NCBI RefSeq assembly: GCF_000428945.1
Contig: NZ_AUAX01000042.1
Location: 1-51,001, forward strand
DNA: 51,001 nt
Reading direction: 5' to 3'
Source of the DNA: Hamadaea tsunoensis DSM 44101
GTDB lineage: Bacteria; Actinomycetota; Actinomycetes; Mycobacteriales; Micromonosporaceae
Below are positions 5,368-43,237 of the stretch, piece after piece (position 1 is the first letter of the stretch; each line of letters opens with the position of its first letter). Made by a program: the position numbers and the translations under genes. The notes beneath the pieces were generated by a model, which was not told the origin of the DNA, did no database searches, and was given only the letters and a program-made list of their open reading frames with translations.

Positions 5368-5402
5368 CCCCTGGTTCGCATGGCCGTGGCACCGCACTAA
5401 CC

Positions 5403-21089: not shown

Positions 21090-22046
21090 TCAGCTCCGGG
21101 GGAGGATTGCTTCACGTGCCGCGTGGGCGAGAGCGGCCTGGGTCGTCGCGGGCAGGCCGAGCCGGTTCCAGTGGAAGATCACGATGTGGCTGGCGATGCG
21201 CCTTAGCCCGCGGTGGAGTTGTCCGGCGTGGGCAGCCGCGGCGAGTTCGCGTCCGGTGTCTGCGTACGCGCGGTGCCAGGGTGCGGCACCGGGTGCTGTA
21301 CCGTCGGGGCCGAACAGCGAGTTGTCGGGGTCGCTGCCGACGGCGAGCAGGCCGCGTACGTTGCCGATGAGGACGTCCAGACGCGGTGGATCGATCGCTG
21401 GAGCGGGGCGCATCGCGGCGACTTGGGCGAACACGTCGCCGCGCTCGAAGTGGTCCAGTTCGGCGGCGTCGAGGAAGGCGCCGATCAGCAGCAGCGACAG
21501 TTCCCGCCGGCCGTAGGTGGGCGCCGGTTGGCGCAGGTGTTGCAGGACGCCGCGGCTGTCGGCGCAGAACAGACCGTGGACCGCCTGTATCGCGGCCGGG
21601 CCGCCGAACGCGTAGGTTTCCGGTTCGTAGATCGTCGGCCACCACCGCGAGCTTGCGTCGGTCGCGGTGAATTCGTCCAGAGCGCGATTCACGGCCTCGA
21701 TGTCGGGGTCGGCGAAACGCAGGCGCCAGCACGGGTATTTGCGCAGGAACCACCAGCCGCTGATCGCACCGTCGTGCTGGAGCTGGTCGAGCGTTGGCCC
21801 CAGGCGGTCGGCCGCAAGGTGTTCGGCCCGGTGCCAGTCGGAGAATTGGACGCGTACGTCATACCACTGGCCCTCGGCGCGGTGGTGCAGCGCTGCGAGT
21901 CCGGCGGAGTGATAGGCGTCGGCGGCGTCGGTCAGCTCGGCCGCGTCCACCCGGGTCGCCGCAGCGACGGTCGTCAGGACCGCACCGGCGAGTATCTGCT
22001 GGACGGCGGCCGCGAGTGACGTGGGGGTCAGACGATCAGCAGACAT
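21090..22046 (-). CDS. Thiopeptide-type bacteriocin biosynthesis protein (stand-alone SpaB_C domain)
   Basis: 318-aa protein with the hallmark opening of the lantibiotic-dehydratase C-terminal (glutamate-elimination) fold: WYDVRVQFSDWHRAEHL, then ISGWWFLRKYPCWRLRF. Known family members remove glutamate from glutamylated Ser/Thr or perform related steps in lanthipeptide and thiopeptide maturation. The upstream LanB already contains both dehydratase halves, so a second elimination-type domain suggests an additional substrate or step, as seen in FxLD clusters. I prefer ATG 22046 (GGATGG upstream); ATG 22055 is possible. The gene overlaps the end of lanC. Confidence 0.85.
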   Translation of the reverse strand: MSADRLTPTSLAAAVQQILAGAVLTTVAAATRVDAAELTDAADAYHSAGLAALHHRAEGQWYDVRVQFSDWHRAEHLAADRLGPTLDQLQHDGAISGWWFLRKYPCWRLRFADPDIEAVNRALDEFTATDASSRWWPTIYEPETYAFGGPAAIQAVHGLFCADSRGVLQHLRQPAPTYGRRELSLLLIGAFLDAAELDHFERGDVFAQVAAMRPAPAIDPPRLDVLIGNVRGLLAVGSDPDNSLFGPDGTAPGAAPWHRAYADTGRELAAAAHAGQLHRGLRRIASHIVIFHWNRLGLPATTQAALAHAAREAILPRS

Positions 22047-23203
22047 ACATCCCATCCACTATGGACGTACCCGTTGGTGGCGGTCTCAGCGGCGAGGAGG
22101 ATTCCGGCGGAACCGTTCAACAGTCCGGGTTCGGCGACGGCCGGCCCGGCTGCGGCAGTCGTGTGCAGGCCGGCGGCCAGCGCAGGCAGTCGCCCGGCCA
22201 GCGCGCTGCGGGGGGCGTCCTCGGCTGCGCGGTAGACGGTCTGGTAGACGCCGGCAAGGCCATGGCACAGACCAGCGTCGGTGGGCCAGTCGACGTCGTA
22301 GCGGGTAAGGCATTGCAGGAGAACCGTTTCCGCATCGGCGCTGCGGGTCGGGTTGCCGGTGGCGGTCGCGGCGAGGTGCAGAGCGCGGGCGATGCCGGGG
22401 GTGCCGTAGCACCACGACGCCCGGCCGGGCGTCTGATCGACGCGACCGGTGTGCAGCTCTTCGGCGGTAAGCCATTGCGGCCACCAGGTGCGGCCGTCCG
22501 GGGTCTCTTGGCGCCACCGGGCGAACCAGTCGGTGAGCCGTTCGATGGCCTCGGCGTGGTCGTCGACGACGTGGCCGTGGCGCATCGCGAGGGCCAGCAG
22601 GGCCAGGATTCCGGCCGCACCATGGGCCATGCCCAGGTTCGCGTGCCCGCCGGGGGTCGGCATCGTCGGGTCCGGGTTCTCGGCCGTCCACCAGCCGGGC
22701 CGTGGTACGTCGTCGCGGACGCCCGGACGGGTCAACGCGACGAGGTAGCGCAGTACGTCGGCGAAGGCGTCGCTGCCGGGCAGGCGTCGCAGCATGAGGG
22801 CGCCGATGCCGGTCAGCCCGTAGAACAGGTCGAACTCGTGCAGCGGTGCGGGGTCGCCGGACCGTGTGCGTGCGGCCGCGTCGGTGAGCTTGGTCTGGGC
22901 GATGCGTAGCACGTGCGGGTCAAGGCGGGCGGCGGCGGGCCGGTAACGCTCGTCGAACGTTGCGGCACAGTGCAGAAGGAACGCCAGGGCCGGCGCGCCG
23001 TAGAACAAGCCGGTGTGGGGGCCGCCGTCGATCGGCCCGCTGACGGCGGCCTGAATGTGCTGGTGCGCCAGCAGTCGCGCGGCAGGATCGGCGCAGGCCC
23101 GTTCGAGGGACGCGAGCGCGATCCCGGGGGCTCCACTGGCCAGAGATTGACGCAGGGCGTCGGGACCATCGAAGGCCACAGGCGCGGCCGTGGGCGTACT
23201 CAT
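22028..23203 (-). CDS. LanC-like lanthionine cyclase
   Basis: 391-aa LanC-type cyclase. Zinc ligands are visible as Cys265 in SWCYGTPG and Cys313-His314 in LCHGLAG. The active-site GMAHGAAG (His195) and the repeated double-helix GLAG/GSAG turns of the alpha/alpha barrel are also present. It adds cysteine thiols to dehydrated Ser/Thr in the precursor to form lanthionine rings. The start overlaps the LanB stop as ATGA, indicating coupled production of dehydratase and cyclase. Confidence 0.92.
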   Translation of the reverse strand: MSTPTAAPVAFDGPDALRQSLASGAPGIALASLERACADPAARLLAHQHIQAAVSGPIDGGPHTGLFYGAPALAFLLHCAATFDERYRPAAARLDPHVLRIAQTKLTDAAARTRSGDPAPLHEFDLFYGLTGIGALMLRRLPGSDAFADVLRYLVALTRPGVRDDVPRPGWWTAENPDPTMPTPGGHANLGMAHGAAGILALLALAMRHGHVVDDHAEAIERLTDWFARWRQETPDGRTWWPQWLTAEELHTGRVDQTPGRASWCYGTPGIARALHLAATATGNPTRSADAETVLLQCLTRYDVDWPTDAGLCHGLAGVYQTVYRAAEDAPRSALAGRLPALAAGLHTTAAAGPAVAEPGLLNGSAGILLAAETATNGYVHSGWDVCLLIV

Positions 23204-26200
23204 CGCAGTACCGATCGGGCCAGGCAGCGCAGCGCGGCGGCCCGCACGAGCCGGTCGGTGGTCTGCTCGAAACCCGGATCGATTCCCAACGCCCGGATGT
23301 GGTGGTCACGCAGCAGCGTCGGGAGCACCGTGGCCGGGTCGCGCTGCGCGGCCACGGCGTCGAAGTAACGGCGCAGGACGACGCTTCGGTCCCGCCACGT
23401 GTCGAGGACCTTGTCTGTACCGGCCGGCCGCGGCGATGAGCGGGTCTCGGCTGGGCCGATGGTGCTGTCGGCCAGTTGGAGGGTGTGCTCGTGCAGGGCG
23501 CGGTCCAGCGGCCCGGTCTGTTGCGGAAGAAGGCGCACGAGGGTCGCGTACCCGGCGGGCGGGTCGGCCGCGAAGCCGGCGGCGATCCAGAGCATCGACA
23601 CCGCAGCGAGTGCCTGTGCGGGGATGCCGCTGGTGTCGGCGGCGGCGATCTGGGCGATGACGCATGCGGTGTCCGCGGCGAAGACCTCTTCGGCGGCGGT
23701 CAATGCCGCGTCGTGGCCGTAGCGGCCGAGCTGGTCGTGGTACGGCACCAGAGTCAACCCGCCGGGCAGGCCCCGCCTGGCCATGGTGTCGGCGAACGCC
23801 GCCAGGCCGGCCGCCGCCGTCGCAAAGTGCTCGGGCGAGGACAGCCGCAGCGTCACGGTGAAGTGCTGGTCGGCGTCCAACCGCACCAGATCGCGGCGGC
23901 GGCGAATCCACCACCGAGAGACAGCCGGGCCGAGCGACGCGACGAGAGCGGGCAGGTGGGCGATGACGGCGTCGAACCGCGCCGGGTTGCCGGCCAGCCG
24001 CGCGTGCACCACATCGGAGTCGCCGGGCAGGTAGCGGCGGCCCGCCGGTGTGATCGGCGGCAGCGGCCGCGGTGCCGGGGCCACGGGGACCATGGGGATC
24101 AGCAGTTCCGCCGGACGGCCGATCCAACCTTGGTCCGTAGGCATGGCGTCCTCGCGTAACTCCACCCGATCGGTCTTCGCGAGCCGGCTGCGCAACAAGG
24201 CCCGATCCAGACGGCGCGTCAGATCCAGCGGTTGACGCAGTTCGCCGTGACACAGAACCACGTGTTGCGGTGCCCGCCATCGCTGTCGCCACACCGCAAG
24301 CGCCTCGTCCCATCCGGAGCTCGCCGGGCCGGGCAAGTCGGCAGCGGACAGCAGCCAGCGGGCGGCGGACAGAACGGTGCGGCCGTAGCGCACACGGGGT
24401 AGGTACGGCAGGGTCCGGGCCGCACCTACGTCGAGCGGGCCGACGATCGCGGTGCGGGCGTCGGCGACCTCGGCCAGGAACCGTGCCAGCGGCGGACTCT
24501 GGACCATGGTGTCCAGCGCATGCGGGATGTGGGGGATGACGCGGCGGCCGGTGGAGATCTGAACCAGGTACATCTGGTCGGCGTCGGCGGTGACGGCCAG
24601 ATCGTCGAGGCCCATCGGGTCGCCGGTCGGATGTTCGGCGAGCGCCACGATGTCGGGCAGTAGGCGGCCGGTGCGGGTGACGTTCTCGTTGTGGGGGCGC
24701 CGCGGCGGAAACGACAGCTGCACCGCCACCGCTGCACTGTCTTGCATTGGCGCTGTGCAGGCGGCGACCAGACGGGCGCGGTCGGCGTCGTCGAACAGGT
24801 ACGCGAAGCGCCCGGCCATGCTGGTCGGCAACGGCGGCGAGGCGGCCAGCTGAAGCTGGAAGTCCCTGCGGTCCAGCGCCGCCGACGACGCGGCGTACAC
24901 GCTCACGCCGATCTCGATGCGCGGCGGTGCGATCACATCCGCGGGGTCGCCTACGGTCAGCGCGGTGACGTCGTCGTCGGTCAGCGCGATCTCGTCCAGC
25001 TCATCCAGCGCGGCCCGCTGTACCAGGGCCAGAAAGACCGCGTCGCGTTCGGTGATCGCTCGCCAGCTCGGGTGGGCGCGGGGCGCGCCGAGGTACCCGG
25101 TCGGAAGTCCGAGTCCGGAGTCGGCCACCAGCTCGCGGACCGGCACCAGCGCGCCCTGGCCGTAGGTGGCCCGGAACCGAGACCGGTAGTCCTGCCATGC
25201 AGTGGACCCGAATGGTTTCGTCGACAGCCGCAACAGCACGTCCGCGGCCCGCACTGCCTCCGTCAGCACGTGCTCCGGGATGCGGGCCGTAGCGTCGAGG
25301 CGGGTGTCGACGGCCAGGACCGGCGTACGCCCGGCGAAGATCCTGCGCATGTGCCGGGCCGCCGAGGCGCGCACCGTGTACGCCTGGGCTGGTTCGGTCA
25401 GCGTGTTGTGGTCGTCGAGAATGTCGCGCACGGTGTCCAGCTCGCCGAGGAGCGGCGCGACGTCGGCGAGCTGGCGGCCGCCGGCGGCGGTGGCCGCGTC
25501 GATCACGTGCCTCAGTGCGTCGACGTCGGTCACCGGTGCGCGCAGGCTGGTGATGAGCGAACCGTTGGCTACCAGCGTGTCGACCACCCCGGCGATCTGT
25601 TCCGCGCTGGCGGCGGGAAATCGGGCTGCCAGTTGAGCGGCGAGCGCATCGACCTGGATCGGAGCAGTGGCCAGCGTCAGCGCTGCCGCCACCGGGGCGG
25701 TGTAGCGGACCGAGGCTTCCCGCAGCGGCACCGCTGTTCCGGCGTCGATGTCCGCCCGGCGGGCCGTGTGGACGCGTCCGTCGCGTATGACGCTGGTGTT
25801 GTCCGCGACGACCATCAGCTGGCGGCGTAGCTGCGGATGCCGCTCCAGCCGGTCGATGATCGCCGCCAGCCACTCGCTGTCGGCGCGGGCGATCGTGCGA
25901 TGGCGCCGCCCGATCGTGACTTCGGTCGGACCGACCGAGGCCAGGGCGACGCCGGCGAACACCCCGAACGGTGTGGCTCGGCCCTGCCATCGCAGCAGAT
26001 AGCCGGCGACGGAGGTCACCGCCCGGCGGAGGTCCTTAACCGTTGCAGCGGACCTGGCAAGAAGCCGGTCGACCGAAGCGGCCAGGGTCGAGCTGGCCAG
26101 GGTGATGGAGTCGCGAACATCGTCGCGGGCCCAGGTCTTCGCGAGCCACGCCAAGCCCTCGGCCCGGACCGCGGCGTCGTCGGCCAGATCCATGCCGCAC

Positions 26201-26280
26201 GGCACGTCCAGGTCGCCGGGGTCGGTCGAGGCGCGCAGCATGACGATGCCGGTGTGCCGGAAGACGGGCGGTACGGACAC
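23200..26280 (-). CDS. LanB-type lantibiotic dehydratase (full length)
   Basis: 1026-aa class I dehydratase. The N-terminal glutamylation domain (ASSTLAASVDRLL, YLLRWQGRATPFGVFAGVALA) uses glutamyl-tRNA to activate Ser/Thr. The C-terminal 300 residues (SRWWIRRRRDLVRL, LTLVPYHDQLGRYG) form the elimination domain. GTG 26280 is preceded by GAGGAGG. It follows the precursor gene after a stem-loop and is coupled to lanC. Together with the LanC protein and methyltransferase it defines an FxLD-type lanthipeptide pathway. Confidence 0.92.
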   Translation of the reverse strand: MSVPPVFRHTGIVMLRASTDPGDLDVPCGMDLADDAAVRAEGLAWLAKTWARDDVRDSITLASSTLAASVDRLLARSAATVKDLRRAVTSVAGYLLRWQGRATPFGVFAGVALASVGPTEVTIGRRHRTIARADSEWLAAIIDRLERHPQLRRQLMVVADNTSVIRDGRVHTARRADIDAGTAVPLREASVRYTAPVAAALTLATAPIQVDALAAQLAARFPAASAEQIAGVVDTLVANGSLITSLRAPVTDVDALRHVIDAATAAGGRQLADVAPLLGELDTVRDILDDHNTLTEPAQAYTVRASAARHMRRIFAGRTPVLAVDTRLDATARIPEHVLTEAVRAADVLLRLSTKPFGSTAWQDYRSRFRATYGQGALVPVRELVADSGLGLPTGYLGAPRAHPSWRAITERDAVFLALVQRAALDELDEIALTDDDVTALTVGDPADVIAPPRIEIGVSVYAASSAALDRRDFQLQLAASPPLPTSMAGRFAYLFDDADRARLVAACTAPMQDSAAVAVQLSFPPRRPHNENVTRTGRLLPDIVALAEHPTGDPMGLDDLAVTADADQMYLVQISTGRRVIPHIPHALDTMVQSPPLARFLAEVADARTAIVGPLDVGAARTLPYLPRVRYGRTVLSAARWLLSAADLPGPASSGWDEALAVWRQRWRAPQHVVLCHGELRQPLDLTRRLDRALLRSRLAKTDRVELREDAMPTDQGWIGRPAELLIPMVPVAPAPRPLPPITPAGRRYLPGDSDVVHARLAGNPARFDAVIAHLPALVASLGPAVSRWWIRRRRDLVRLDADQHFTVTLRLSSPEHFATAAAGLAAFADTMARRGLPGGLTLVPYHDQLGRYGHDAALTAAEEVFAADTACVIAQIAAADTSGIPAQALAAVSMLWIAAGFAADPPAGYATLVRLLPQQTGPLDRALHEHTLQLADSTIGPAETRSSPRPAGTDKVLDTWRDRSVVLRRYFDAVAAQRDPATVLPTLLRDHHIRALGIDPGFEQTTDRLVRAAALRCLARSVLR

Positions 26281-26388: not shown

Positions 26389-26670
26389 TCAGGTCGGGTC
26401 GCTGGACTTGGTCGCGCAGGCACTAGTGCTACAGCTACTTCCGCAGCCGTCGCTGGTGCTGCACATCATGACGACCAGCGGCGTGGTCGACTCGACGACT
26501 CGCATGTCGAGCGCGAACAGATCGTCGTTGTCGGGTGCGGCGGGGCCGAGGCCCGCCGTGGGGTCATACACCGGGTACGCCAGCGCCCAGTTCGACAGCG
26601 GGCTCCGGTCGGCGTGGCTCTCGGGTGTGGTGGAGGCGTCTGCGCGGCCGGGGTGTTCCAGCACAGGCAT
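26389..26670 (-). CDS. FxLD-family lanthipeptide precursor (93 aa)
   Basis: ATG 26670 follows GAGGAG. The leader carries the defining FALD motif (residues 52-55) in LFALDMRVVES. The C-terminal core after about residue 62 is rich in Ser/Thr and has four cysteines (70, 76, 80, 85) in CSTSDGC-GSSC-STSAC, ending KSSDPT. The likely product is a class I lanthipeptide with up to four (methyl)lanthionine rings, possibly methylated at an acidic residue by the adjacent methyltransferase. The cleavage site and ring pattern cannot be read from the sequence. No dedicated protease gene is next to it, but a creatininase-family hydrolase lies nearby. Confidence 0.9.
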   Translation of the reverse strand: MPVLEHPGRADASTTPESHADRSPLSNWALAYPVYDPTAGLGPAAPDNDDLFALDMRVVESTTPLVVMMCSTSDGCGSSCSTSACATKSSDPT

Positions 26671-26726: not shown

Positions 26727-27965
26727 CTACGCCGCCGAGGGCCAGGAGATCGTGAGCAGGCCATGCGTCTTCTCCAGCTCGGCCACGACGCCAGAAAGGT
26801 CGCCGGGCCCGCCGTCGTTCGGCCAGTACGCAAACGTCGGAGCCAGCCCGCCTCGGGCGTACTGATCCCATGCCTGCATCTGGCCGGTCATCGCTGCGGC
26901 AGCGTCGCGTCCGTGCCGGCCGTACGCTCTGGCGCCGAGTTCGTAGCGCGACTCCTCGCCGATCCGGCGTAGCGCGAAGTACGCGAACGAATCTGCGTAG
27001 ACCACTGCGAACGGCAGCCAGTTCGACTCGGCCTTCAACTCGGTGCCTTCGTCCGTCGCGAGCAGGCAGAAACCCGGGAGGAAGCCGGCCATCCACAGAT
27101 GCAGGTCGGCGAACGGCTCGCTGCCGCCGACGAACACCCCCGACCAGGCTTCCGAGCGTTCGGTGCCCAGCACACCATCCAAGGCGTGCACGTCGTCCGG
27201 TACGCCGACATCGAACCGAAGACTCACCGCGTGCCCCCGGGCATCGGGCAGCCGGAAGATCCGCTCCGGCCGGGCGTCGTCACCCTGGACCGGTACGAAC
27301 CCAGCGAGCTCCGTCGACGTACTGACCAGGTGGTCGCCGTCGCGGCGGAAAGCGATCGTGCGGGTTACGCCGTTCATACGCAGTGGCACCACGATCACTC
27401 CGGCCGGGCTGAGGTGATCGAGCAGCGCGGGCGGGATGTCCCACATCCCGACCGTCACGATGATCGCGTCGAATACGCCCGCATCGGGCACACCGCGCGC
27501 CGCGTCGGCCTGCACCACCCGGACCCGGCCGCCGTAACCAGCCGCCTCCAGCAGCTCCGCCGCTCGATCGGTGATGTCCGCGTCGATATCGACGCTGACG
27601 ACGTCCCCGTCCGGACCGACCACCTCGGCCAACAGTGCCGCGTTGTAACCGCCCGACCCGATCTCCAACACGCGCATGCCCGGCCTGACCTTGGCCTGCT
27701 CGATCATCCGCGCCTGAATGTAGGTTGCACTCACCGACGAGAGATGCGCCCCATGCTCATCAGTCTTGGTGATCACCGACCGGTCAACGGCATACACCAC
27801 ATCCAGCGGCGTACCAGCGGGAACGAAAGCATGCCGAGGGACCGTCCGAAACGCCGCCTCCACCTCGGGCGAGACGATCATTCCTTCGGCGACCAGGCGC
27901 GCAACCAACTCATCCCGGGCCGACTCTCCTCGCCTGGCGTGGTCGGTGACTTCAGCCGCGTACAT
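26727..27965 (-). CDS. FxLD-system methyltransferase (PCMT-like)
   Basis: 412-aa SAM-dependent methyltransferase related to protein L-isoaspartate O-methyltransferase: VPRHAFVP, the SAM-binding VLEIGSGGYNAALLAEVVG, then VSVDID and DAIIVTVGMWDIPP. The C-terminal 200 residues are an extension characteristic of the enzymes paired with FxLD precursors. I chose ATG 27965 because AGGAG lies 10 bases upstream; ATG 27995 and the open frame to 28112 are less likely. As first gene of the operon it is preceded by the palindromic operator at 28323. It probably modifies an Asp or isoAsp in the mature peptide. Confidence 0.88.
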   Translation of the reverse strand: MYAAEVTDHARRGESARDELVARLVAEGMIVSPEVEAAFRTVPRHAFVPAGTPLDVVYAVDRSVITKTDEHGAHLSSVSATYIQARMIEQAKVRPGMRVLEIGSGGYNAALLAEVVGPDGDVVSVDIDADITDRAAELLEAAGYGGRVRVVQADAARGVPDAGVFDAIIVTVGMWDIPPALLDHLSPAGVIVVPLRMNGVTRTIAFRRDGDHLVSTSTELAGFVPVQGDDARPERIFRLPDARGHAVSLRFDVGVPDDVHALDGVLGTERSEAWSGVFVGGSEPFADLHLWMAGFLPGFCLLATDEGTELKAESNWLPFAVVYADSFAYFALRRIGEESRYELGARAYGRHGRDAAAAMTGQMQAWDQYARGGLAPTFAYWPNDGGPGDLSGVVAELEKTHGLLTISWPSAA

Positions 27966-28378
27966 CAACTCTGCGCTCCTGTCTCGATGCTTCATGGTCT
28001 GACGTAGGACTAACGACTCGCGATCTCTCGACCTGAGCTGCCTTGTTTCGAGGAGTAGGCGCAAGTGACTTTCGCTGCCGCCATGGCGGGAGTTGATCAG
28101 GTAATACGCCAACGGGAGTACTGCGGAGGTGGTTGCGTGGCGACCGCGCCCTGCGTTGCCGCCTGACTTTGCTTCATCGGTCGACGCTATTCATTCCGGC
28201 ACGGGTAGGTAGCGCGGCAATCCCCGCATCACGCATGCACTCTCCTGGAGAAGGCTCTCGGGCCAGTGCCCGACTTCTACCTCAATTTCGCCCGGAAGCA
28301 TGATCATTATCTATGCCCTGATGAATACAACCCTTACTGTATTCATCGACCAGAAAGTGCCCTGGCTACTTCGGGTGC
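27966..28378. other. Promoter region of the lanthipeptide operon
   Basis: 413 bases between the methyltransferase start and the creatininase stop. They hold the perfect operator at 28320-28347 and, on the minus strand just beyond it, a TAGATAAT sequence (28307-28314) that could be a -10 element. No gene is supported. Confidence 0.55.
28320..28347. promoter_or_regulatory. Palindromic operator, site 1 (lanthipeptide operon)
   Basis: Perfect 10-bp arms GATGAATACA and TGTATTCATC with an 8-base spacer. The inner 22 bp, GAATACA-N8-TGTATTC, is identical in arms and spacing to site 2 at 30465-30486. A dimeric regulator, most simply the XRE-TPR protein encoded between the two sites, is the likely ligand. 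Confidence 0.75.
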
Positions 28379-29101
28379 TCAGGAGGTCGAGTGGCGGAGT
28401 GCGCCCAGGTAAGGGGCAAATGATCGAGCAAGGCTTTCTAGGACGAGCCGTCCCTTTTCGGCGGTGGCGAGGGATGGCTGGCCGATGACTCCGCTCTTGG
28501 TGTATGCCTTCATGCCATGGGTCAACAGGAGGGCGCGTCGGTCAAGTCCGTCGTGATCTGCGGTGGTATACGACGGCCGCACCAGCTGTGGATCGATATG
28601 AAGTAGCAGTGAGGTTTCGATTTCGCCGGCGTGCATGTCATCGTGGGCGTCGGTCGAGAGCCCGGCGGCAACTCGTGATGCGGACCAGTCGTCCCGTCCC
28701 GGGTAGAGGGCCGCGCAGGGCCCGCTGATCGTAAGCTCTTGCACGACGTTGCTCAGAACGTAGTTGCCGCCGTGCCCGTTGACGATGGCTAGCCGCTCGA
28801 TTCCTGAGCTCCGCAGCGAGCTGAAGATGTCCATGATCATGTTGTGGAGTGTGGTTGCACTGATGCTGACGGTTCCAGGCCACCCGGCGTGTTCGTGAGA
28901 GCATGCGATCGTGATCGGCGGCAGAAGTAGGACGCCGCTGTAGCGGGCGGCTATTGCCGATGAAATGGAGCAGGCCACCAGCGTGTCGGTGCTCAACGGC
29001 AGGTGATCGCCATGCTGCTCGAAGCTGCCGATCGGCAGGATGGCAACATCGGGCTTTGCTGCGGTGACGTCGGACGATGCCGCCACGGTGATGATGTCCA
29101 T
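28379..29101 (-). CDS. Creatininase-family metal-dependent amidohydrolase
   Basis: 240-aa protein with creatininase-family metal sites: Glu and His in GSFEQHGDHLPLSTDT, His in CSHEHAGWPGT, NGHGGN, and a late acidic HAGEIETS segment. The family includes creatininase and MftE, the peptidase that trims the precursor of the RiPP mycofactocin. ATG 29101 lies a few bases beyond the regulator stop (29107), so the two genes are coupled. Because the cluster otherwise lacks a leader protease, a role in trimming the FxLD peptide is an attractive inference, but creatininase-like enzymes also act on small lactams. Confidence 0.85.
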   Translation of the reverse strand: MDIITVAASSDVTAAKPDVAILPIGSFEQHGDHLPLSTDTLVACSISSAIAARYSGVLLLPPITIACSHEHAGWPGTVSISATTLHNMIMDIFSSLRSSGIERLAIVNGHGGNYVLSNVVQELTISGPCAALYPGRDDWSASRVAAGLSTDAHDDMHAGEIETSLLLHIDPQLVRPSYTTADHDGLDRRALLLTHGMKAYTKSGVIGQPSLATAEKGRLVLESLARSFAPYLGALRHSTS

Positions 29102-29106
29102 GCGCC

Positions 29107-30285
29107 TCAGCTTGCCTCGCGGCCCTCGGCTGCGTTCCACCGGGCTCGGAGCTGTTCGTATCCAGTGACGCTGAGTAGACGCTGGTCGGAGATGAGAGGC
29201 CCTATCACCCGCTCAGTGCGACGCGACTGAGTCTGGTCGGCGAGGTCGAGTGCGATGCGCCCCTGAGCGATGGCTTGCTCCGGACGCCCGGAATTCAAGT
29301 ACGCGATGCTGAGGTTCGCCCGAAACAGCCCTTCGTCCAATCGCTGGGGCGAGGGCCACGTCCGAAGGACATCCTCGAAGATGGCGGCCGCCGCGACGGC
29401 TTCGCCCAAGGAGAGCAGACATTGCGCCTCGTGAGCCCGGATGTACTCCGGTGTGCAATGCGCGGCGACTGCGCGATCCGTAGGATCCGAGGCGCCCGCT
29501 TCGTCGATTAGCGAGGCAGCGGCTCGGAGGTGTCCTAGAGCTGTCGGTCGTTCACCGATAGCAGCGCGGGCCTGGGCCGCTCTGATGAGGAGCAGTGCCC
29601 GTACTCTTGGCGGTAGCTTGGACTGTTCGGTGGTATTAACCAGGTTCAACGACACTCTTGGCTGACCAGCCTCAGCCGCACGTTGTGCGCGACGCATCAC
29701 AACGTATGCGCCGAATGTCGCGTCAGATGCCTTCGCGGCCAGCCGCCCCGCCTTCTGAAGCCAAGCGGCCGCGACCGCCGACTCGTTGGTGTTGTCAGCG
29801 ATCCAGCTTCCGAACTCCAGCCAGCGTGATTGGGACCGCAGGAAGTCAAGGTGGACTCGCCCCGACGTCTTACCGCCATAGTGGGAGATGACGTTGACTT
29901 CTGTGGAAACGATTCGCATTAGGTCATGACCGCCTGCGGCGTTGCGGGAAGAAGCCAACACGCTCAGGAGGTCGTTCCAATGCTGGACGAGCTGCGGGTT
30001 GGCAACCTGAGGCCGCCGGGCGGCCCGGCGTTCGACATCGGCTTCGTCCCACAGTTCGATCAAGCGTCCGTCGGCAGCTAGGACCCGATCGAGAGTCTCG
30101 GCGATCCGTCGAGTCGGGCGCCGGTCAGCCCGTTCGTATTTGGCAAGTGCATCTGGCGAGGCTGGAAGTTCCGGCGCTAGCTGTGCGAGGGACAGGCCGC
30201 GATCTGCGCGAAGATCTCGCAGGGCGGCTCCGAACCGATGCTGGGCGGAGAGCGTGGGATCGAGCGACGCTGGTGCCTGTGGCAT
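29107..30285 (-). CDS. XRE-type HTH regulator with TPR domain
   Basis: 392-aa protein. Residues 15-75 form an XRE helix-turn-helix (FGAALRDLRADRGLSLAQLA, SPDALAKYERADRRPT). The rest is helical TPR sequence (ALLLIRAAQARAAIGERPTA, CLLSLGEAVAAAAIFEDVLR). Proteins of this layout often sense small peptides. ATG 30285 is used; the frame opens at 30324. It lies between the two copies of the GAATACA-N8-TGTATTC operator, one overlapping its own upstream region and one before the lanthipeptide operon, so it is the best candidate for controlling both and itself. It is coupled to the creatininase gene. Confidence 0.88.
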   Translation of the reverse strand: MPQAPASLDPTLSAQHRFGAALRDLRADRGLSLAQLAPELPASPDALAKYERADRRPTRRIAETLDRVLAADGRLIELWDEADVERRAARRPQVANPQLVQHWNDLLSVLASSRNAAGGHDLMRIVSTEVNVISHYGGKTSGRVHLDFLRSQSRWLEFGSWIADNTNESAVAAAWLQKAGRLAAKASDATFGAYVVMRRAQRAAEAGQPRVSLNLVNTTEQSKLPPRVRALLLIRAAQARAAIGERPTALGHLRAAASLIDEAGASDPTDRAVAAHCTPEYIRAHEAQCLLSLGEAVAAAAIFEDVLRTWPSPQRLDEGLFRANLSIAYLNSGRPEQAIAQGRIALDLADQTQSRRTERVIGPLISDQRLLSVTGYEQLRARWNAAEGREAS

Positions 30286-30600
30286 GACGCACCATCCTTC
30301 GGCTCCTGGTTCATATCGAGGCAAATGATAGCCCTATGAGGCTCCGCCGCGCCATCGCATCACGACCAGGCGTAGGACTGCGTGCCGCTCGTGCTACCAG
30401 GAAGAGCCCTAATCGCCGGAAGCCAAAGACGCCGGAGTCTCCGTGTCGCTTTCGCAAGCGCAGCGAATACATCTCGGAATGTATTCATTCAAGGTATCGC
30501 CTCGGATGAGCTCAGTAGGCCAAATAGATGCGTGTCCTGACGTCATCAATGGCGAAGCGGGAACACCCGTCCACGATGTCCTGAACTGAGGGAGCCGTCG
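30286..30600. other. Divergent promoter region between regulator and long operon
   Basis: 315 bases. They contain operator site 2 (30465-30486). On the minus strand TTGAAT followed after 17 bases by TATTCG could be the regulator promoter overlapping the operator. No gene is supported. Confidence 0.5.
30465..30486. promoter_or_regulatory. Palindromic operator, site 2 (regulator / long operon)
   Basis: GAATACA-TCTCGGAA-TGTATTC, same arms and same 8-base spacer as site 1. It lies 180 bases upstream of the XRE regulator start (minus) and 115 bases upstream of the first small gene of the plus-strand operon, suitable for control of both. Confidence 0.75.
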
Positions 30601-30753
30601 GTGTCGAAGATTGCAGGCGTGGTCTTGCATTGCAGGCGGTCGCGGACCGCGCTGAAGAAGCGTCGGGTAGGAAGGTCACGGCCGAAACCCATAGGGCGCC
30701 CAAACCAGCCCAAATTCAGCCGCCTGGCCTTGAGTATCGAGAGCCCGGTATGA
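30601..30753 (+). CDS. Small basic peptide coupled to the APC permease (50 aa)
   Basis: GTG 30601 has GGGAG 8 bases upstream. The 50-codon frame ends in TGA overlapping the permease start as ATGA, the same coupling used through the rest of the operon. The peptide begins VSKIAGVVLHCRRS and is very rich in Arg and Lys (TALKKRRVGRSRPKP, GRPNQPKFSR), with one Cys and a short hydrophobic start. It could be a leader peptide ensuring permease translation, a peptide substrate of the operon, or chance. I do not recognise a family. Confidence 0.45.
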   Translation: MSKIAGVVLHCRRSRTALKKRRVGRSRPKPIGRPNQPKFSRLALSIESPV

Positions 30754-32204
30754 CGAGGGTCTTGGCGCTGCGGACCCTGGGGGCCCCCGCGTTGTGGGTG
30801 TACGCCGTGGGGGCATCTTCGCCGATGACGGTGCTCGTGGGTGGGTTGCCGACGATGTATGCGTCGAGTGGTGTGGTGGGTGTGCCGGCGGGATTCTTGT
30901 TGATCACCCCGATCTTGCTTGCGTTGCTGGTGGGCTATGTGGCGGTGACGCAGCAGGTACCGCATCCTGCGGCGTTCTATGCGGTGGTTGCTCAGGGGAT
31001 TTCGCCGACGGCGGGGATCGCGGCGGGTTTCGTGGGTCTGCTGGGGTACAACGCGATCGGTATTTCTCTGTACGGCCTGCTGGGCTACAACCTTTCGCAG
31101 CTGGCGGGCAGTTGGTGGGTGTGGGCGTCGGCGGCGTTGGCGTTCGTGACGTTGCGGGGGCTGCGTAGCGGCGGCCGCAACGCGAAGATCATGGGCTGTT
31201 TCCTCGCCCTGGAGCTGGGTGTGCTGCTGGTCTATGTGCTGGCCGCGTTCGCCAGCCCGGCCCGTGGCCACGTCGAGTTCGCGAGCCTGTCACCGGCGAA
31301 GCTGTTGGTGAGCGGGGTCGCGATCGTGCTGGTCTTCATGTTGGCGGCCATGACGGGCACCGAAACACCGGGCGCCCACGGTGAAGAGGCGCAGCCCGGC
31401 GCGGCGCGCCGGGCGACGCTCATCGCCGCCGCGGTCATGGGGCCGATGTACGCGTTGTTAGCGTGGGCGATGGCCGTGCACGCAGGCAGCGATCATGTCG
31501 TCGACTCCGCCGGCGCATTCCTCGCCGGCCATGGACCCGGACCGCTGGAGCTGCTGGGAGCTGTCTACGGGTCGGCCGTGACGCACATCAGCAATCTGAT
31601 CTTGGTGACGAGCATCGTGACGGCGATGATCGCGTTCCATTCGACCGGTGCCCGGTACACGTTCGGGATGGCCCGCGAGGGTGTGCTGCCGAAGGGCTGG
31701 GCCGCGGTCGGGCGGGGTGAGCGTGACGGTGCTCCGTGGGCGGCGTCGTTGGTCCAGACCGTGATCGCATCGGGGGTGATCGGCGGCTGGGTGGTGCTGG
31801 GCTGGTCGCCGATGGTGTTGTTCACGTGGCTGTCGACGATCGGAGCGGTTTCGATCTTGACGTTGCTGGTCGTGTCGTCGGTCGCGGCGTTGAAGTTCTT
31901 CAACTCCGGCGCCGGTGGTAACGAGGGCGTTTTCGTGCGCCGGGCCGCGCCGATGGCCGGGTTGGTGTTCGGGTTCCTCGTTCTGGCGATGGCGTTGACC
32001 AACGTCAACGCGCTGTTGAGCCTGCCGCCGGACTCACACCTTTCCCTGTTGGTACCTGGCGTGATCGTGGCGGTCGCCGTGATCGGCGCAATGTGGGGGC
32101 GGACGCTGCGGCGGGATCGGCCGCAGACGTGGCAGGGCACGGGCGCCACGATCGCTGATCCGGTGACGGCCGATGTGACGCGCCTGCATGAGCTGGAGAT
32201 GTGA
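30750..32204 (+). CDS. APC-superfamily amino acid permease
   Basis: 484-aa integral membrane protein with about 12 predicted transmembrane segments (for example SPMTVLVGGLPTMYASSGV, FLLITPILLALLVGYVAV, LLVSGVAIVLVFMLAAMTG). The GTETPGAHGEEAQ loop resembles the conserved E-rich segment of APC transporters. It probably moves an amino acid or amine; with a group II decarboxylase two genes downstream, exchange of an amino acid for its decarboxylation product is plausible. ATG 30750 is chosen because it overlaps the upstream small frame. The stop and the next start overlap (TGATG). Confidence 0.88.
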   Translation: MTRVLALRTLGAPALWVYAVGASSPMTVLVGGLPTMYASSGVVGVPAGFLLITPILLALLVGYVAVTQQVPHPAAFYAVVAQGISPTAGIAAGFVGLLGYNAIGISLYGLLGYNLSQLAGSWWVWASAALAFVTLRGLRSGGRNAKIMGCFLALELGVLLVYVLAAFASPARGHVEFASLSPAKLLVSGVAIVLVFMLAAMTGTETPGAHGEEAQPGAARRATLIAAAVMGPMYALLAWAMAVHAGSDHVVDSAGAFLAGHGPGPLELLGAVYGSAVTHISNLILVTSIVTAMIAFHSTGARYTFGMAREGVLPKGWAAVGRGERDGAPWAASLVQTVIASGVIGGWVVLGWSPMVLFTWLSTIGAVSILTLLVVSSVAALKFFNSGAGGNEGVFVRRAAPMAGLVFGFLVLAMALTNVNALLSLPPDSHLSLLVPGVIVAVAVIGAMWGRTLRRDRPQTWQGTGATIADPVTADVTRLHELEM

Positions 32205-33058
32205 TGGCCGACTACACCTCGACTACCTCGCCCTACCTGGCGGCCGCACAAGCCCCGGCCGGGCAGCGGACCGCTTCTGCGGCGACCGACGGGGAACATC
32301 AGGCGCACGCCGGTCGTGAGCCGCAGTGGATCGCGGACTTGCGCCGCGCGGCGGTCGATCGGGCGAAGCTCGGCGCGGTCCGGCATGCCCGCAACGTGTG
32401 GGAGCTGCGGCACCGGGATCCGTTGTGCCATCACGGTCTGGCGCTGCTGTACACGCAGCCCGAAGTCGACACAGTTCGGGCACGTAACGTCCCGCCCCGC
32501 CAGCCGGCGCCGATGCGCACGGCCATCACGTCCGCGTGGCGGTACTGGCTGGCCGGCCCGGAAGTCGAAGACCTGCCCAGCCTGCTGTTCAAGCTTCACC
32601 AGGAGATGGCACCGCGCCTGCTGGAACCGGGCTTTGACGTCCGCGACTGGCTGACGTTCAAACCCGACCCGGGCATGCAACCCGATGCCGTGTACGCCGG
32701 CATCGCGGCGGTCAGCCTCGACCTGCCAGACCGGCCGTGGCGGGAAGCCAGGCCGACGATCCGCCGGGGGGAGGACATCGCCTCGTACGTGCGCGTCGTG
32801 CTCACCGACGGCACGTTGGTCGCGCTGCTGCGTAAGGGATACAACGACTTCAACCATGTCCGGGTGCAGTCGACGCACAACCTCGCCTTCGCCGACGGGG
32901 CCGCTCCCTACCCGCTGCGCCGGATGACGGCGTCGGAGATGGTCCCCGATCGCGACGACGACAGCGACCCCTTCAAGTGGCTGATCGCCCTGGGCGACAC
33001 CTGCGCGCAGGCCGACAACCGGCGCGTGGTCGGCCGCCAGCCGGGCGGCCGGCGATGA
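32204..33058 (+). CDS. Conserved-looking protein of unknown function (284 aa)
   Basis: ATG 32204 overlaps the permease stop and follows GGAG. The 284-aa product has no signal peptide or membrane segment. Middle parts (SAWRYWLAGPEVEDLPSLLF, SYVRVVLTDGTLVALLRKGY) look like an alpha/beta globular enzyme or binding domain, but I recognise no motif. It is coupled by ATGA to the decarboxylase gene, so the two proteins probably act together. A role in substrate activation or as decarboxylase partner is only a guess. Confidence 0.75.
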   Translation: MADYTSTTSPYLAAAQAPAGQRTASAATDGEHQAHAGREPQWIADLRRAAVDRAKLGAVRHARNVWELRHRDPLCHHGLALLYTQPEVDTVRARNVPPRQPAPMRTAITSAWRYWLAGPEVEDLPSLLFKLHQEMAPRLLEPGFDVRDWLTFKPDPGMQPDAVYAGIAAVSLDLPDRPWREARPTIRRGEDIASYVRVVLTDGTLVALLRKGYNDFNHVRVQSTHNLAFADGAAPYPLRRMTASEMVPDRDDDSDPFKWLIALGDTCAQADNRRVVGRQPGGRR

Positions 33059-34266
33059 CCTTTCCCGCAGTCGACCCCCATCTCACCCTCGCGGCGGTGG
33101 CTGAGCGCTGGACGGCAGGCCGGCGTACCAACATCGCCTTTCCCGGCGCCTACGATCTCGGCCCCCTGATCGACCAGCATTTTGCGGCCGCAGGGCTGTG
33201 GAGCCAACTGGGCAACAACATCGGCTCCCCGTACGACGACGGGCACGGCCACGACCATTCCAAACCACAGGAACGCCAGGTCGTCGACCTGCTCGCCGAC
33301 ATGTTCGGTGCCCCGGCCAGCCGGTGGGGGTACGTGACCAGCGGCTCGACCGAATCCACCCTCCACGCCCTCTACGACGCCAAACAGCAGCTTCCGGGAC
33401 TGGTCGTCTACACCTCCGCCGACGCCCACTACTCGGTAGTCAAGCTGTGCGTGCTCCTACGCCTGCCGTGGGTGATCGTCGAGGCGACCGACGACGGCCG
33501 CATCGACCTGGCCGACCTCGGGCAGGAGATGGGCCGCCGCCGCGACCAACCAGCGATGGTCGTCGCCACGGCGGGAACGACCATCACCGAGGGGTGCGAC
33601 GACGTGGCCGCGATCGCCGACCTGTGCCACCGGTACGCGCGCGGCCGGTGGCGCCTGCACGTCGACGCGGCCCTGGCCGGCCCGCCACTCGGCCTGCTCC
33701 CGGCGTCGGTCCGGCCGGCGTTCGACTTCGCGGCCGGAGCGACCTCCATCGGGATCAGCGGGCACAAGTCGCTGAGCACCTGCGATCCCTGCGGGGTGAT
33801 CGTGTATGCCGAGCCGCCCTATGCGGCCGCCCGGGCGCAGATCGCCTACACCGGCACCGCCGACGTCACGATGAGCGGATCGCGCAGCGCCCGCACACCG
33901 CTGAAACTGTGGCTGGTCCTCAACGCCCTGGGCGCTGACGGACACCGCGAGCGGTTCGACGTCGCGCGGCAGGTCGCCGCGTACGCGCATGACCGGCTGC
34001 GCACGATCGGCGTGGCCGCCGAACGCAACCCGCACGCCTTCACCGTCTACTTCCCGCCGCCACCCGCCGGGCTGACCGAACGGTGGGCGATCGCCACCGA
34101 CCGCCGCTACGGGCACATCATCTGCATGCCCGGCATCGAACCGGCCCAAGTCGACGAGTTCGCCCGCGACTGGGCGAAACTCCTGCCGAAGTCCCGCAGA
34201 CTGGTCCGCCCCCGCCGACCCGCCGCACACGCTGAGGAGCCGGTCACCGTCGGGGGCACGGCATGA
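33055..34266 (+). CDS. PLP-dependent group II decarboxylase (histidine decarboxylase-like)
   Basis: 403-aa fold-type I PLP enzyme. The cofactor lysine is Lys238 in GISGHKSLS; His125 in ADAHYSVVK stacks on the ring and Asp204 in LHVDAA binds the pyridine nitrogen. The order (SGSTES phosphate loop, HYSV, HVDAA, SGHKS) matches bacterial histidine/serine decarboxylases, although the usual GGTEGN is replaced by SGSTEST, which may change substrate. It likely converts an amino acid to an amine. Start overlaps the previous stop (ATGA). Confidence 0.88.
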   Translation: MTFPAVDPHLTLAAVAERWTAGRRTNIAFPGAYDLGPLIDQHFAAAGLWSQLGNNIGSPYDDGHGHDHSKPQERQVVDLLADMFGAPASRWGYVTSGSTESTLHALYDAKQQLPGLVVYTSADAHYSVVKLCVLLRLPWVIVEATDDGRIDLADLGQEMGRRRDQPAMVVATAGTTITEGCDDVAAIADLCHRYARGRWRLHVDAALAGPPLGLLPASVRPAFDFAAGATSIGISGHKSLSTCDPCGVIVYAEPPYAAARAQIAYTGTADVTMSGSRSARTPLKLWLVLNALGADGHRERFDVARQVAAYAHDRLRTIGVAAERNPHAFTVYFPPPPAGLTERWAIATDRRYGHIICMPGIEPAQVDEFARDWAKLLPKSRRLVRPRRPAAHAEEPVTVGGTA

Positions 34267-34858: not shown

Positions 34859-35013
34859 CCGTCGACCTGATCCACGCCCGGCTCGTGTTCCTCCACCTCC
34901 GACTGCGCGACCAGCTGCTCGTGCCGGGCCTGATCGTCGTGGTCCTCGGCAGCCCCGCGTCCCTGTTCGCGCCCGTCGCCACGGTGTACGCCCGGCGGGC
35001 GGCCTTCGCATGA
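34855..35013 (+). CDS. Very small membrane-like peptide (52 aa)
   Basis: ATG 34855 overlaps the previous stop and TGA 35013 overlaps the ABC ATPase start (ATGA on both sides), so it is very probably translated. The peptide has a central hydrophobic stretch LLVPGLIVVVLGSPASLF flanked by Arg residues, compatible with one membrane segment. No family is recognised. Given its position it could be a small membrane partner of the ABC ATPase. Confidence 0.55.
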   Translation: MTVDLIHARLVFLHLRLRDQLLVPGLIVVVLGSPASLFAPVATVYARRAAFA

Positions 35014-35738
35014 CCGATGCCCTGCTCCAGGTCGACGCCGTCACCTACCGGTACGGCGATCTGGTCGCCGTCGACGACTTCACTCTGGTCGTCCAGCCGG
35101 GGGAGCGGCTGGCGCTGCGCGGCGCGAGCGGCGCTGGGAAGTCCACATTGCTCGACCTCATCGACGGTACGGTCACGCCCGCGGCCGGGCGGATTGTGTT
35201 CGCCGGCCAGGACATCACCGCATGGTCGGCGGATCGGCGGGCGGCCATGGGGATCGCGCGGGTCTTCCAAAAACCGCAGTCTGCCGAGTGGTTGACCGTC
35301 TGCGACAACATCCTGCACGGGGCCCGCCAGCACCGTCGCCAAGGCGTGCACGTAGTCCGGCAGGGTGCCGCCCTAGTCAACGCCCTCAACGCCAACGCCT
35401 ACGACCTGGCTGCCTGGGCGGGACTGCGAGACCTCGCCGACGTGCTGGCCGGGGAGCTGTCGTACGGCCAACGTCGCCGGCTCGATCTGGCGATGGCCAT
35501 GGCCGTCGAACCGATGCTGCTGCTGCTCGACGAACCGACCGCCGGACTGTCTTCCGAGGAGGCCGGGTTCGTCGGCGCGCTGTTGCGTAACCTGCCGGTC
35601 CAGATCGCCTACCTGCTCGTGGAGAACGACTCGGTGATCGCCGACCGGCGTACCTCGACCGCTGTGCACTTCAACCAGCCGCCGCTGCTGCGGAGGCGCC
35701 GCGATGAGCCGGACCGTCCTGCAGGAGGCGAACGATGA
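35010..35738 (+). CDS. ABC transporter-type ATPase with altered H-loop
   Basis: 242-aa ABC ATPase: Walker A GASGAGKST (38-46), Q-loop FQKPQ, signature LSYGQRRRLD (150-159) and Walker B LLLLDEPTAG (Asp174-Glu175). The overall pattern resembles branched-chain amino-acid (LivG/LivF) ATPases. The H-loop position reads LLVENDSV, with Asn206 instead of the switch His, so ATP hydrolysis may be weak or altered. No classical permease gene is adjacent; the 52-aa peptide before it or the polytopic protein at 36986 could be its membrane partner. It is coupled to both neighbours. Confidence 0.85.
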   Translation: MTDALLQVDAVTYRYGDLVAVDDFTLVVQPGERLALRGASGAGKSTLLDLIDGTVTPAAGRIVFAGQDITAWSADRRAAMGIARVFQKPQSAEWLTVCDNILHGARQHRRQGVHVVRQGAALVNALNANAYDLAAWAGLRDLADVLAGELSYGQRRRLDLAMAMAVEPMLLLLDEPTAGLSSEEAGFVGALLRNLPVQIAYLLVENDSVIADRRTSTAVHFNQPPLLRRRRDEPDRPAGGER

Positions 35739-35902
35739 ACCTGGAGAAGACCACGCCGCCGAGCGGCACCATCGCGACCTGCCGCGGCTGCCCGCGCCCG
35801 GTGGTCTGGGACGACGTCCACGGCTGGATGCACACCCATTCCGACCAGCCGCCCGTACTCCGTACGCACCACGTGGCCGACGCCGTCTGGCCGCAGCGAT
35901 GA
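35735..35902 (+). CDS. Very small CxxC/His protein (55 aa)
   Basis: ATG 35735 follows CAGGAGG and overlaps the ABC gene stop; its TGA overlaps the kinase start. The 55-aa product has CRGC (16-19) and a cluster of His (DVHGWMHTHS, RTHHVAD), suggesting a small zinc-finger fold. Two ATGA overlaps plus a strong ribosome site make it a good gene call. Function unknown; possible adaptor. Confidence 0.7.
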   Translation: MNLEKTTPPSGTIATCRGCPRPVVWDDVHGWMHTHSDQPPVLRTHHVADAVWPQR

Positions 35903-36963
35903 ACGCAGCCCTGACCCTCCAGCCCGGCGGGTTCCTGCGCGGCCCGCAGCGGCGTACCCCACCAGCCACCCGCGACCCCCGGCCGCCGATCGTGCCGTAC
36001 CCGGCGGCCGTCACCCGGCCCGGCTGGACGCACCTGCCACAGCGCCTCCGCGACGAGATCGACGAGCGGTCCGGGCAGCCGGTCATCGACGCGACCCCGT
36101 CGGCGGCCGGGTTCAGCGCCACGTTCGCCGCGGTCCTCACCCACGCCGACGGCCGCCGGTCCTTCTGCAAGGCCGCACCCGCCGCCAGCCCGACCGGCCA
36201 GGCGTACGTCCGTGAAGCCCTGATCGTGGCCCGGCTGCCCGCCGACATCCCCGCAGCCCGGCTGCGCTGGCACCACCACACCGACTGGATCATCGCCGTC
36301 TACGACGCCATCGACGGCGCCAGCCCGGCCCGCGGCTGGACGAGCGACCCCACGCCGATCCTCGCCGCCGTCACGAACACGGCCCATGGGCTCACCCACG
36401 TCTCCGGGGCGCTGCGCGCCGCGGCCCGGCCGGCAGAACCGCTGCCCGCCGGATGGGCCGACATCGCCGAGGGCGTACGGCCGCTGCCCACCCACGCCGC
36501 CGCCCTCGCACCGCTCGCGCCGTCGATGGCCCGCTGGGAAGCCGACTTCCTGACCGCCGTCGCAGACACCCGCGAACTCGCCCACTACGACGTGCGGCCA
36601 GACAACCTGATGGCCAACGAGCACGGACGGGTCTGGCTGGTCGACTGGGCCACCCTACGCCCCGGCCCATCCTATGTAGACACGGTGATGCTGGCGATCG
36701 GCGCCGCCGACGATGGCGCCGAGCCGCAGCGGTTCTTCGACCAAGCGGCACCGAAGGTTACAGGCGACCAGGTCGACCAGACCCTGGCGTGGCTGTCGGG
36801 AGCGTGGCTCGCATACGCCGGCGACCCACCGCGGCCCGACGCCCCGCATCTGCGTCACCACCAGCTGCGCAGCGGCCTGCTCGCCTGGGAGTGGCTCGCC
36901 CACCGCCACGGCCTGCCCCACACACCTGCCTTCCCGACCGGCGCCGGGCACACCCCGGCCTAA
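35899..36963 (+). CDS. Aminoglycoside phosphotransferase-like kinase
   Basis: 354-aa protein with the APH/choline-kinase fold: an SFCKAA strand giving the ATP-binding Lys91, Glu106 in the following helix, the catalytic loop HYDVRPDNLM (His229, Asp231, Asn236) and the metal-binding Asp249 in VWLVDWA. Such kinases phosphorylate small molecules or resemble protein kinases. In this operon the substrate is more likely a pathway intermediate than an antibiotic. Start overlaps the previous gene (ATGA). Confidence 0.85.
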   Translation: MNAALTLQPGGFLRGPQRRTPPATRDPRPPIVPYPAAVTRPGWTHLPQRLRDEIDERSGQPVIDATPSAAGFSATFAAVLTHADGRRSFCKAAPAASPTGQAYVREALIVARLPADIPAARLRWHHHTDWIIAVYDAIDGASPARGWTSDPTPILAAVTNTAHGLTHVSGALRAAARPAEPLPAGWADIAEGVRPLPTHAAALAPLAPSMARWEADFLTAVADTRELAHYDVRPDNLMANEHGRVWLVDWATLRPGPSYVDTVMLAIGAADDGAEPQRFFDQAAPKVTGDQVDQTLAWLSGAWLAYAGDPPRPDAPHLRHHQLRSGLLAWEWLAHRHGLPHTPAFPTGAGHTPA

Positions 36964-36985
36964 CCCAGAAAGCCTGCCACCTGCC

Positions 36986-42206: not shown

Positions 42207-42370
42207 AGCCGGCGCCCTGCCGCGATCAGCCCACCCGTTGCCCGTGGCGCCGCTGCCGCCTACTCGCTGTCGCCGCGGTTTCTGAACGGTCGCGGTCCTC
42301 GCCCAAGCCTCACTACCAGACCGATCCGGCCACTCGGGCCTCGTCGCTCACCCGTTGTTGAAAGGCCGCA

Positions 42371-43234: not shown

Positions 43235-43237
43235 ATC

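Follow-up and report, generated by a model that had tools for sequence, protein, structure and literature searches.

Identical palindromes flanking a regulator-creatininase gene pair beside an FxLD lanthipeptide operon of Hamadaea tsunoensis

The window analyzed here is a stretch of 51,001 nucleotides (nt) from Hamadaea tsunoensis DSM 44101 (NZ_AUAX01000042.1), which forms the whole of contig 39 in a genome of 9,477,227 bp and 68 contigs. It contains two copies of the palindrome GAATACA-N8-TGTATTC (28323-28344 and 30465-30486), about 2.1 kb apart and identical in their 7-bp arms and N8 spacing. Between the copies lie the genes of a putative XRE-type regulator with a helix-turn-helix (HTH) domain and a tetratricopeptide repeat (TPR) half, here called REG, and of an adjoining creatininase-family protein, CREA. 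Beyond site 1, the minus-strand operon is, by its predicted precursor, methyltransferase, LanB, LanC and thiopeptide-type proteins, an FxLD lanthipeptide system (class I). Beyond site 2, a plus-strand operon starts with the gene of an APC-family permease (Table 1). A first-pass annotation of this DNA had described two such palindromes with the regulator gene between them, and both are indeed present.

The complete genome was scanned for the motif. GAATACA-N8-TGTATTC is found at exactly these two places, as compared to about 0.0016 exact copies expected from the base composition. When up to two mismatches are allowed three further places appear, all at two mismatches and none at one; with up to three mismatches shuffled windows give a mean of 0.24 matches. 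The palindrome pair is therefore real and far beyond chance. Site 1 is positioned about 35 nt beyond the creatininase stop codon and about 325 nt 5' of the likely methyltransferase ATG (27995), and site 2 in the gap between the divergent REG and permease genes, about 260 nt ahead of the likely permease ATG (30750). The regulator-creatininase pair thus lies between them. The arms and spacing of the 22-bp operator proposed in the first-pass annotation are exact, but its extent was too short for site 1, where the flanks lengthen each arm to 10 bp (ATGAATACA-N8-TGTATTCAT). A 38-aa open frame (28191-28307, minus strand) begins some 14 nt beyond site 1, in the stretch of about 325 nt that separates the site from the methyltransferase gene; gaps of about 200-500 nt between operator and methyltransferase gene recur at other loci.

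Inverted repeats in such places might also be transcription terminators or RNA hairpins. Site 1 does fold on its arms just past the creatininase stop codon (-15.6 kcal/mol, z -3.2), and a site in Rhizocola hellebori, the first of two described below, folds equally well (z -3.2). However, no U-run follows site 1; site 2, located in a divergent intergenic gap, has a best fold in which the arms are not paired with each other; the second site of a Micromonospora locus (L161; L numbers designate the compared loci) reaches only z -1.4; and the single Rfam match, at 17.9, falls far short of the gathering score of 50. Arms that stay the same at separate places while the spacers differ are better explained by DNA binding, and we regard an RNA element as highly improbable.

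The exact motif was absent from all 396 other genomes sampled from the order. The confinement of the motif to two places, which the first-pass annotation had named as support for its proposal, was thus confirmed, and the absence of the exact letters from related clusters, which it had named as counting against the proposal, was observed as well. This absence at first seemed to speak against the finding and was resolved when relatives of the operator were sought as palindromes repeated within homologous loci. If the HTH type of the regulator is considered, the operator frame does occur in related clusters, although its letters differ. By this comparison GAATACA-N8-TGTATTC is one spelling of a wider frame, ATGnnnAC-N9/10-GTn'n'n'CAT, the central triplet of which varies between lineages. 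In the H. tsunoensis genome the loose form ATGnnnAC-N9/10-GTnnnCAT occurs at 13 places, with fully complementary triplets at site 1 only. The outermost bases of one arm of site 2 mismatch the frame, which is missed there by more than one base.

The closest homologue of REG that was found, 47% identical, is encoded in Rhizocola hellebori, again with a creatininase gene adjacent. In this genome of 10.8 Mb the palindrome TGCATACA-N7-TGTATGCA occurs exactly twice, and no other place lies within three mismatches, as compared to nine for the reversed control. One copy lies about 20 nt past the creatininase gene, as in the window, and the other 7.3 kb further on. One precedes gltX and the other an operon for radical S-adenosylmethionine (SAM), methionine adenosyltransferase, methyltransferase, PhyH and FkbM proteins. 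The region bracketed by these identical-arm operators (L105:12103-19210; a duplicate of the locus, L150, was left out) looks like a biosynthetic cluster.

In Micromonospora (genus group g2; 11 loci, L155 and L157-L166) the operator is spelled ATGCGGAC-N9/10-GTCCGCAT. At all 11 loci ATGCGGACA-N8-TGTCCGCAT is located about 105 nt ahead of the regulator match (84 nt in L160); at L159 and L162 the operator is also found about 110 nt 3' of the creatininase gene, and in seven of the 11 a second copy with N7 spacing lies about 3.5 kb past it. At L160, L161 and L165 the second copy precedes the FxLD methyltransferase gene by about 340-350 nt, close to the distance in the window. Next to the Micromonospora operator we also observed genes for a NUDIX protein and QueC (L159:7363-9477), and for a short-chain dehydrogenase/reductase (SDR), a methyltransferase and a NUDIX protein, with a weak thymidylate-kinase match (L155:1145-6159).

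The frame was then followed, with at most one mismatch, through FxLD loci not selected by motif. These comprised 40 regions, mostly the best-scoring, among the 95 matches above the cut-off that were listed. Seven frame matches were counted in the 40 FxLD loci, as compared to 0, 1, 1, 2 and 1 in shuffles, and 23 in 63 loci with REG or CREA matches, as compared to 0, 1, 4, 0 and 0. After removal of duplicates (L106 = L151, L110 = L176, L116 = L152; L094 overlaps L019), 39 FxLD and 60 REG/CREA loci remained. Four of the 39 (L063, L069, L070 and L083) carry the frame, each with an XRE gene beside it; in L063, L069 and L070, from three genus groups that do not include g2, its position is 5' of the methyltransferase gene. 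The link between regulator, operator and FxLD operon drawn by the first-pass annotation is supported, and the same arrangement recurs in other genera.

Other palindromes were noticed in some loci. Those 5' of REG in L024, L171 and L175 have GTTAA/TAACA cores and possibly represent the operator spelling of another HTH type. L026 (family f15) carries GCGCAT-N7-ATGCGY at 8020, 10226 and 10270, ahead of REG and twice at the CREA end, in a flanking layout similar to the window with another spelling. Apparent repeats at L182-L184 were read as tandem HTH genes and rejected as operators.

Several related bacteria thus have this type of palindrome next to a regulator of the same type and to comparable genes for peptide production, and the palindrome is very probably the binding site of the XRE-TPR regulator encoded between its copies. 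The strongest reason for assigning the operator to the HTH protein is that it follows the HTH across clusters. Starting from the window HTH as the sole seed, we grouped 89 regulators, identified through their C-terminal halves, into 60 clusters at 70% identity. The frame lies within 500 nt on the 5' side in 5 of the 10 clusters with an HTH score of at least 17.5 and in none of the 49 below it (Fisher 5e-5), where the cut-off was chosen post hoc, after the list had been seen, and the window was left out as the seed. The Rhizocola regulator was counted as lacking the operator, its sites not being 5' of the regulator, as was the window regulator, site 2 being off-frame; a broken copy of XRE2, a second regulator introduced below, forms a low-scoring cluster of its own (L158). 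Two regulators illustrate the trend: that of Catellatospora (L106) shares 44% identity with REG across the C-terminal half and 21% across the HTH and lacks such a site, whereas XRE2 is 20% identical in the C-terminal half and 37% in the HTH, and has the operator.

XRE2 is a second NsdA-family regulator in Micromonospora, paired with an S9 peptidase; its L161 copy scores 314 bits. Against the NsdA equivalog model NF050130 XRE2 reaches 100.7 bits, below the cut-off of 830. The operator lies just ahead of the XRE2 and/or S9 peptidase genes in 12 of 15 regions chosen by motif (the others being L196, L198 and L201). In this set it also precedes the FxLD methyltransferase gene in L190, L194 (where the copy is broken up) and L204, and an APC permease gene in L190, L193 and L195, with the S9 gene as the neighbour on the other side. 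Two regulator-hydrolase pairs, REG-CREA and XRE2-S9, thus appear common to one operator class.

Several observations weigh against REG as the protein that binds the operator, or against the operator as a regular companion of the pair. Since XRE2 shares the Micromonospora operator, a site there is no proof of REG binding, and 29 of the 44 genomes with the ATGCGGAC spelling (among 300 genomes of the family) fall outside the 58 that carry a close CREA. The frame was matched in only 13 of the 60 regulator-creatininase loci, most being without the operator, and one of the 13 (L178) was treated as a chance match. It was not found at nine REG-CREA loci adjoining FxLD genes (L018, L019, L107, L151, L156, L173, L115, L182 and L185), and L083 shows two different triplets at a single locus. 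The HTHs of L018, L019, L106 (= L151) and L107 differ from that of REG, and their own operators were not identified.

It is conceivable from these data that a different regulator uses the operator, perhaps an XRE2-type protein encoded elsewhere in the genome, with REG-CREA merely a regulated neighbour. The Micromonospora spelling indeed flanks XRE2-S9 cassettes without a creatininase gene, and two NsdA-like regulators are encoded on contig 12 of H. tsunoensis (L102), though with low HTH scores (-2.6 and -3.1). On the other hand, neither XRE2 nor S9 has a separate match in the window (for XRE2 the search did not extend to the rest of the genome), and a regulator encoded far away would need to have both of its sites placed around REG, the window motif occurring nowhere else in the genome. 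Furthermore, REG-CREA is accompanied by the operator in Rhizocola and flanked by perfect sites in L159 and L162, in each case with no XRE2 or S9 match in view. We therefore judge this alternative decidedly unlikely.

REG combines an HTH_31 domain with a weak TPR match in its C-terminal half. It scores 113 bits against the NsdA-family model NF053720, above the curated cut-off of 75, and the NsdA equivalog NF050130 is absent among its matches. A search of solved-structure sequences with REG retrieved TPR chains named designed, engineered or consensus, together with various HTH chains. CREA reaches 220 bits against PF02633 (cut-off 31) and thus belongs to the creatininase family. Its residues E41, H43, D52, GHGGN (122-126) and E173 are invariant across nine aligned homologues and are presumably of the type known as metal or catalytic ligands. 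The nearest NCBIfam model is the mycofactocin peptidase MftE (TIGR03964), at 150.7 bits and below the cut-off of 172.

A single-protein scan of genome contigs confirmed no relative, and an alignment-based scan yielded 13 loci; in a class-wide regulator search (296 genomes, six candidates per genome scored among the rows listed) REG of the window was the only hit at E <= 1e-30. CREA adjoins the regulator at 12 of 13 loci (it is on the opposite strand in L111, and L117 ends soon after the regulator) and adjoins 9 of 11 other regulator matches. Conversely, a frame matching the REG profile lies directly 5' on the same strand for 47 of the 65 CREA frames examined, a count for which the profile was built partly from the same loci and in which some CREA frames are fragments. 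As judged by gene order, REG and CREA travel together as a putative portable control cassette. Among the 60 REG/CREA loci, a methyltransferase and LanB are in view at 12 (L018, L019, L107, L115, L151, L156, L160, L161, L165, L173, L182 and L185) and a methyltransferase without LanB at two (L109 and L158), and most therefore show other neighbours.

The operator may also reach the plus-strand operon. Its genes are closely packed, with ATGA overlaps in sequence, running on from the decarboxylase to the alpha/beta hydrolase gene. In 10 of the 11 Micromonospora REG-CREA loci the operator is located ahead of an APC permease gene, between regulator and permease as in the window. Near an FxLD locus (genome G477) and near REG-CREA in L183, genes for all three of the permease, the 285-aa protein and the decarboxylase are again found together; L184 has those for permease and decarboxylase near REG-CREA. 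Decarboxylase homologues were detected in 25 of 121 genomes (31 other copies) and lie, by comparison of coordinates, about 8-13 kb from FxLD methyltransferase genes in G477, G430 and G414, where well under one such pairing is expected by a rough hand estimate. Control of the permease-decarboxylase genes of the window from the operator is thus likely.

Site 1 could also control the FxLD operon with site 2 serving REG-CREA autoregulation alone and the plus-strand operon being unrelated. This has a considerable chance of being correct, although we do not favour it. Weighing for it, and against plus-strand control, the operator frame was not recognized at four other loci with permease and/or decarboxylase genes (L071, L089, L183 and L184), the permeases of the window and of Micromonospora show only remote similarity (30% over 106 aa, E 0.003), and no clear -10 box was seen by eye on the plus side of site 2. 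The permease genes next to the operator in Micromonospora, including L190, L193 and L195, and the decarboxylase genes near FxLD methyltransferases or, with permease genes, near REG-CREA, argue against it. A single regulon as proposed in the first-pass annotation is accordingly supported by the location of site 2, by the Micromonospora permease across the same frame and by the permease and decarboxylase genes near FxLD or REG-CREA, and weakened by the missing operator at those loci; its extent of about 25 genes and its 'one purpose' are conjectural.

Table 1. Genes and operator sites of the window
Feature	Position	Strand	Remark
374-aa protein, recurrent in FxLD loci, no family match	19963..21087	-	
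Thiopeptide-type bacteriocin biosynthesis protein (Lant_dehydr_C)	21090..22055	-	
LanC-like cyclase	22028..23203	-	
Lantibiotic dehydratase LanB	23200..26280	-	
FxLD lanthipeptide precursor (TIGR04363)	26389..26670	-	
FxLD-system methyltransferase (TIGR04364)	26727..27995	-	first recognized gene of the lanthipeptide operon; open frame to 28112
Operator site 1, ATGAATACA-N8-TGTATTCAT	28321..28346	no strand	5' of the FxLD operon, just 3' of the creatininase gene
CREA, creatininase-family amidohydrolase adjoining REG	28379..29101	-	open frame to 29140; start suggested by homologue L018
REG, HTH_31-TPR regulator, NsdA family	29107..30285	-	open frame to 30324; MPQ start suggested by the Rhizocola homologue
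Operator site 2, GAATACA-N8-TGTATTC	30465..30486	no strand	in the intergenic gap from which REG and PERM diverge
PERM, APC-family amino acid permease (PF13520)	30750..32204	+	first recognized gene of the plus-strand operon; open frame from 30630
285-aa protein, no family match	32201..33058	+	between permease and decarboxylase at two other loci too
DEC, pyridoxal phosphate-dependent decarboxylase (PF00282)	32977..34266	+	
Further plus-strand genes	35010..44373	+	putative regulon members
ABC ATPase	35010-35738	+	
Alpha/beta hydrolase	42964-44373	+	several uncharacterized genes between the ABC ATPase and this gene

The FxLD assignment derives from family models, the precursor scoring 51.1 bits against TIGR04363 (cut-off 30) and the methyltransferase 482 bits against TIGR04364 (cut-off 320). 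A 50-aa open frame (30601-30753, plus strand) overlaps the likely permease ATG (ATGA) and is possibly a translationally coupled leader. The protein of a 460-aa frame (11352-12734, minus strand) is 51% identical to a gene product of L184, where two frames share the same start (5249-6622 and 11504-12877); this is possibly an insertion-sequence gene. On contig 12 a second FxLD-type methyltransferase (L098:9188-10435) is encoded beside homologues of plus-strand operon genes (L098:1249-9096; ABC 62%, 284-aa protein 44%, hydrolase 56% identical), with no LanB match within 20 kb and no operator frame found at this locus.

From computed properties of the operator, namely its identity, uniqueness, recurrence, tracking of the HTH and placement before FxLD genes and, in Micromonospora, before APC permease genes, we infer that a REG dimer would bind both sites. 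Bound at site 1, REG would control the FxLD lanthipeptide operon; bound at site 2, it would control its own REG-CREA operon and the divergent permease-decarboxylase operon. The analogy with NsdA would favour repression over activation. The TPR half may sense a small ligand that changes DNA binding, and CREA would most likely make or destroy this ligand rather than act on the lanthipeptide, since it stands beside the regulator with and without FxLD genes and a role on the signal is therefore likelier than one on the precursor. We hold this model as a whole to be probable, with good confidence.

The mature lanthipeptide, which the first-pass annotation had put forward as the inducer, would suit the notion that TPR-linked XRE proteins can sense peptides, as in the RRNPP family. 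However, REG-CREA and the same frame also stand beside genes with no FxLD match in view, such as gltX and the radical SAM/methionine adenosyltransferase/methyltransferase operon of Rhizocola, the SDR-methyltransferase-NUDIX genes of L155 and the NUDIX-QueC genes of L159, where other peptide products are possible. Since the same cassette occurs at such loci, the claim found no support, and the lanthipeptide is unlikely as a general inducer. With more reserve than for the model itself, we suggest a rather speculative extension: a portable cassette of an NsdA-type HTH-TPR receptor and a creatininase-type amidohydrolase, or of an NsdA-type regulator and an S9 peptidase, might have its hydrolase handle the ligand of the receptor, and through the operator one diffusible signal would govern an APC transporter together with exchangeable biosynthetic operons (FxLD lanthipeptide, radical-SAM/gltX, nucleoside-like).

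Overall, a group of RiPP (ribosomally synthesized and post-translationally modified peptide) clusters that had none in the papers searched now has a readable operator. Because the HTH type suggests the operator spelling, regulon membership becomes testable from sequence. The regulator-hydrolase module may answer one signal across unrelated natural-product operons, and its ligand, if found, could help to switch on silent clusters in Micromonosporaceae-type actinobacteria. The matches listed in the searched literature, which did not cover preprints, showed neither this operator nor a pairing of creatininase and regulator, nor a named operator for an FxLD cluster.

When compared with known systems, REG resembles NsdA and NsdB of Streptomyces (NF053720) in the combination of an HTH_31 domain with a TPR-like half at the C-terminus. 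In S. rimosus, NsdA is described as regulating rimocidin biosynthesis negatively, with 12 validated targets from chromatin immunoprecipitation, and the available parts of that report do not mention a palindrome (PMC12243394). Measured against this description, REG differs by the two palindromes in its own neighbourhood and by the neighbouring hydrolase. CREA shares the creatininase family PF02633 with MftE, described as a creatininase homologue for leader removal in mycofactocin biosynthesis (PMC10885120), and differs from it by its score below the cut-off and by its place beside a regulator. The lanthipeptide operon shares precursor, methyltransferase, LanB, LanC and thiopeptide-type protein with FxLD class I clusters (TIGR04363/TIGR04364). 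With the RRNPP peptide sensors REG has the predicted HTH and TPR architecture in common; a cognate peptide gene for it was not identified, the small open reading frames having only been listed. The gamma-butyrolactone receptor/synthase pairs also set a portable receptor next to a signal-handling enzyme with varied biosynthetic cargo, but their proteins are unrelated to REG and CREA. The operator together with the REG-CREA arrangement is a real and new regulatory variant within a known kind of system.

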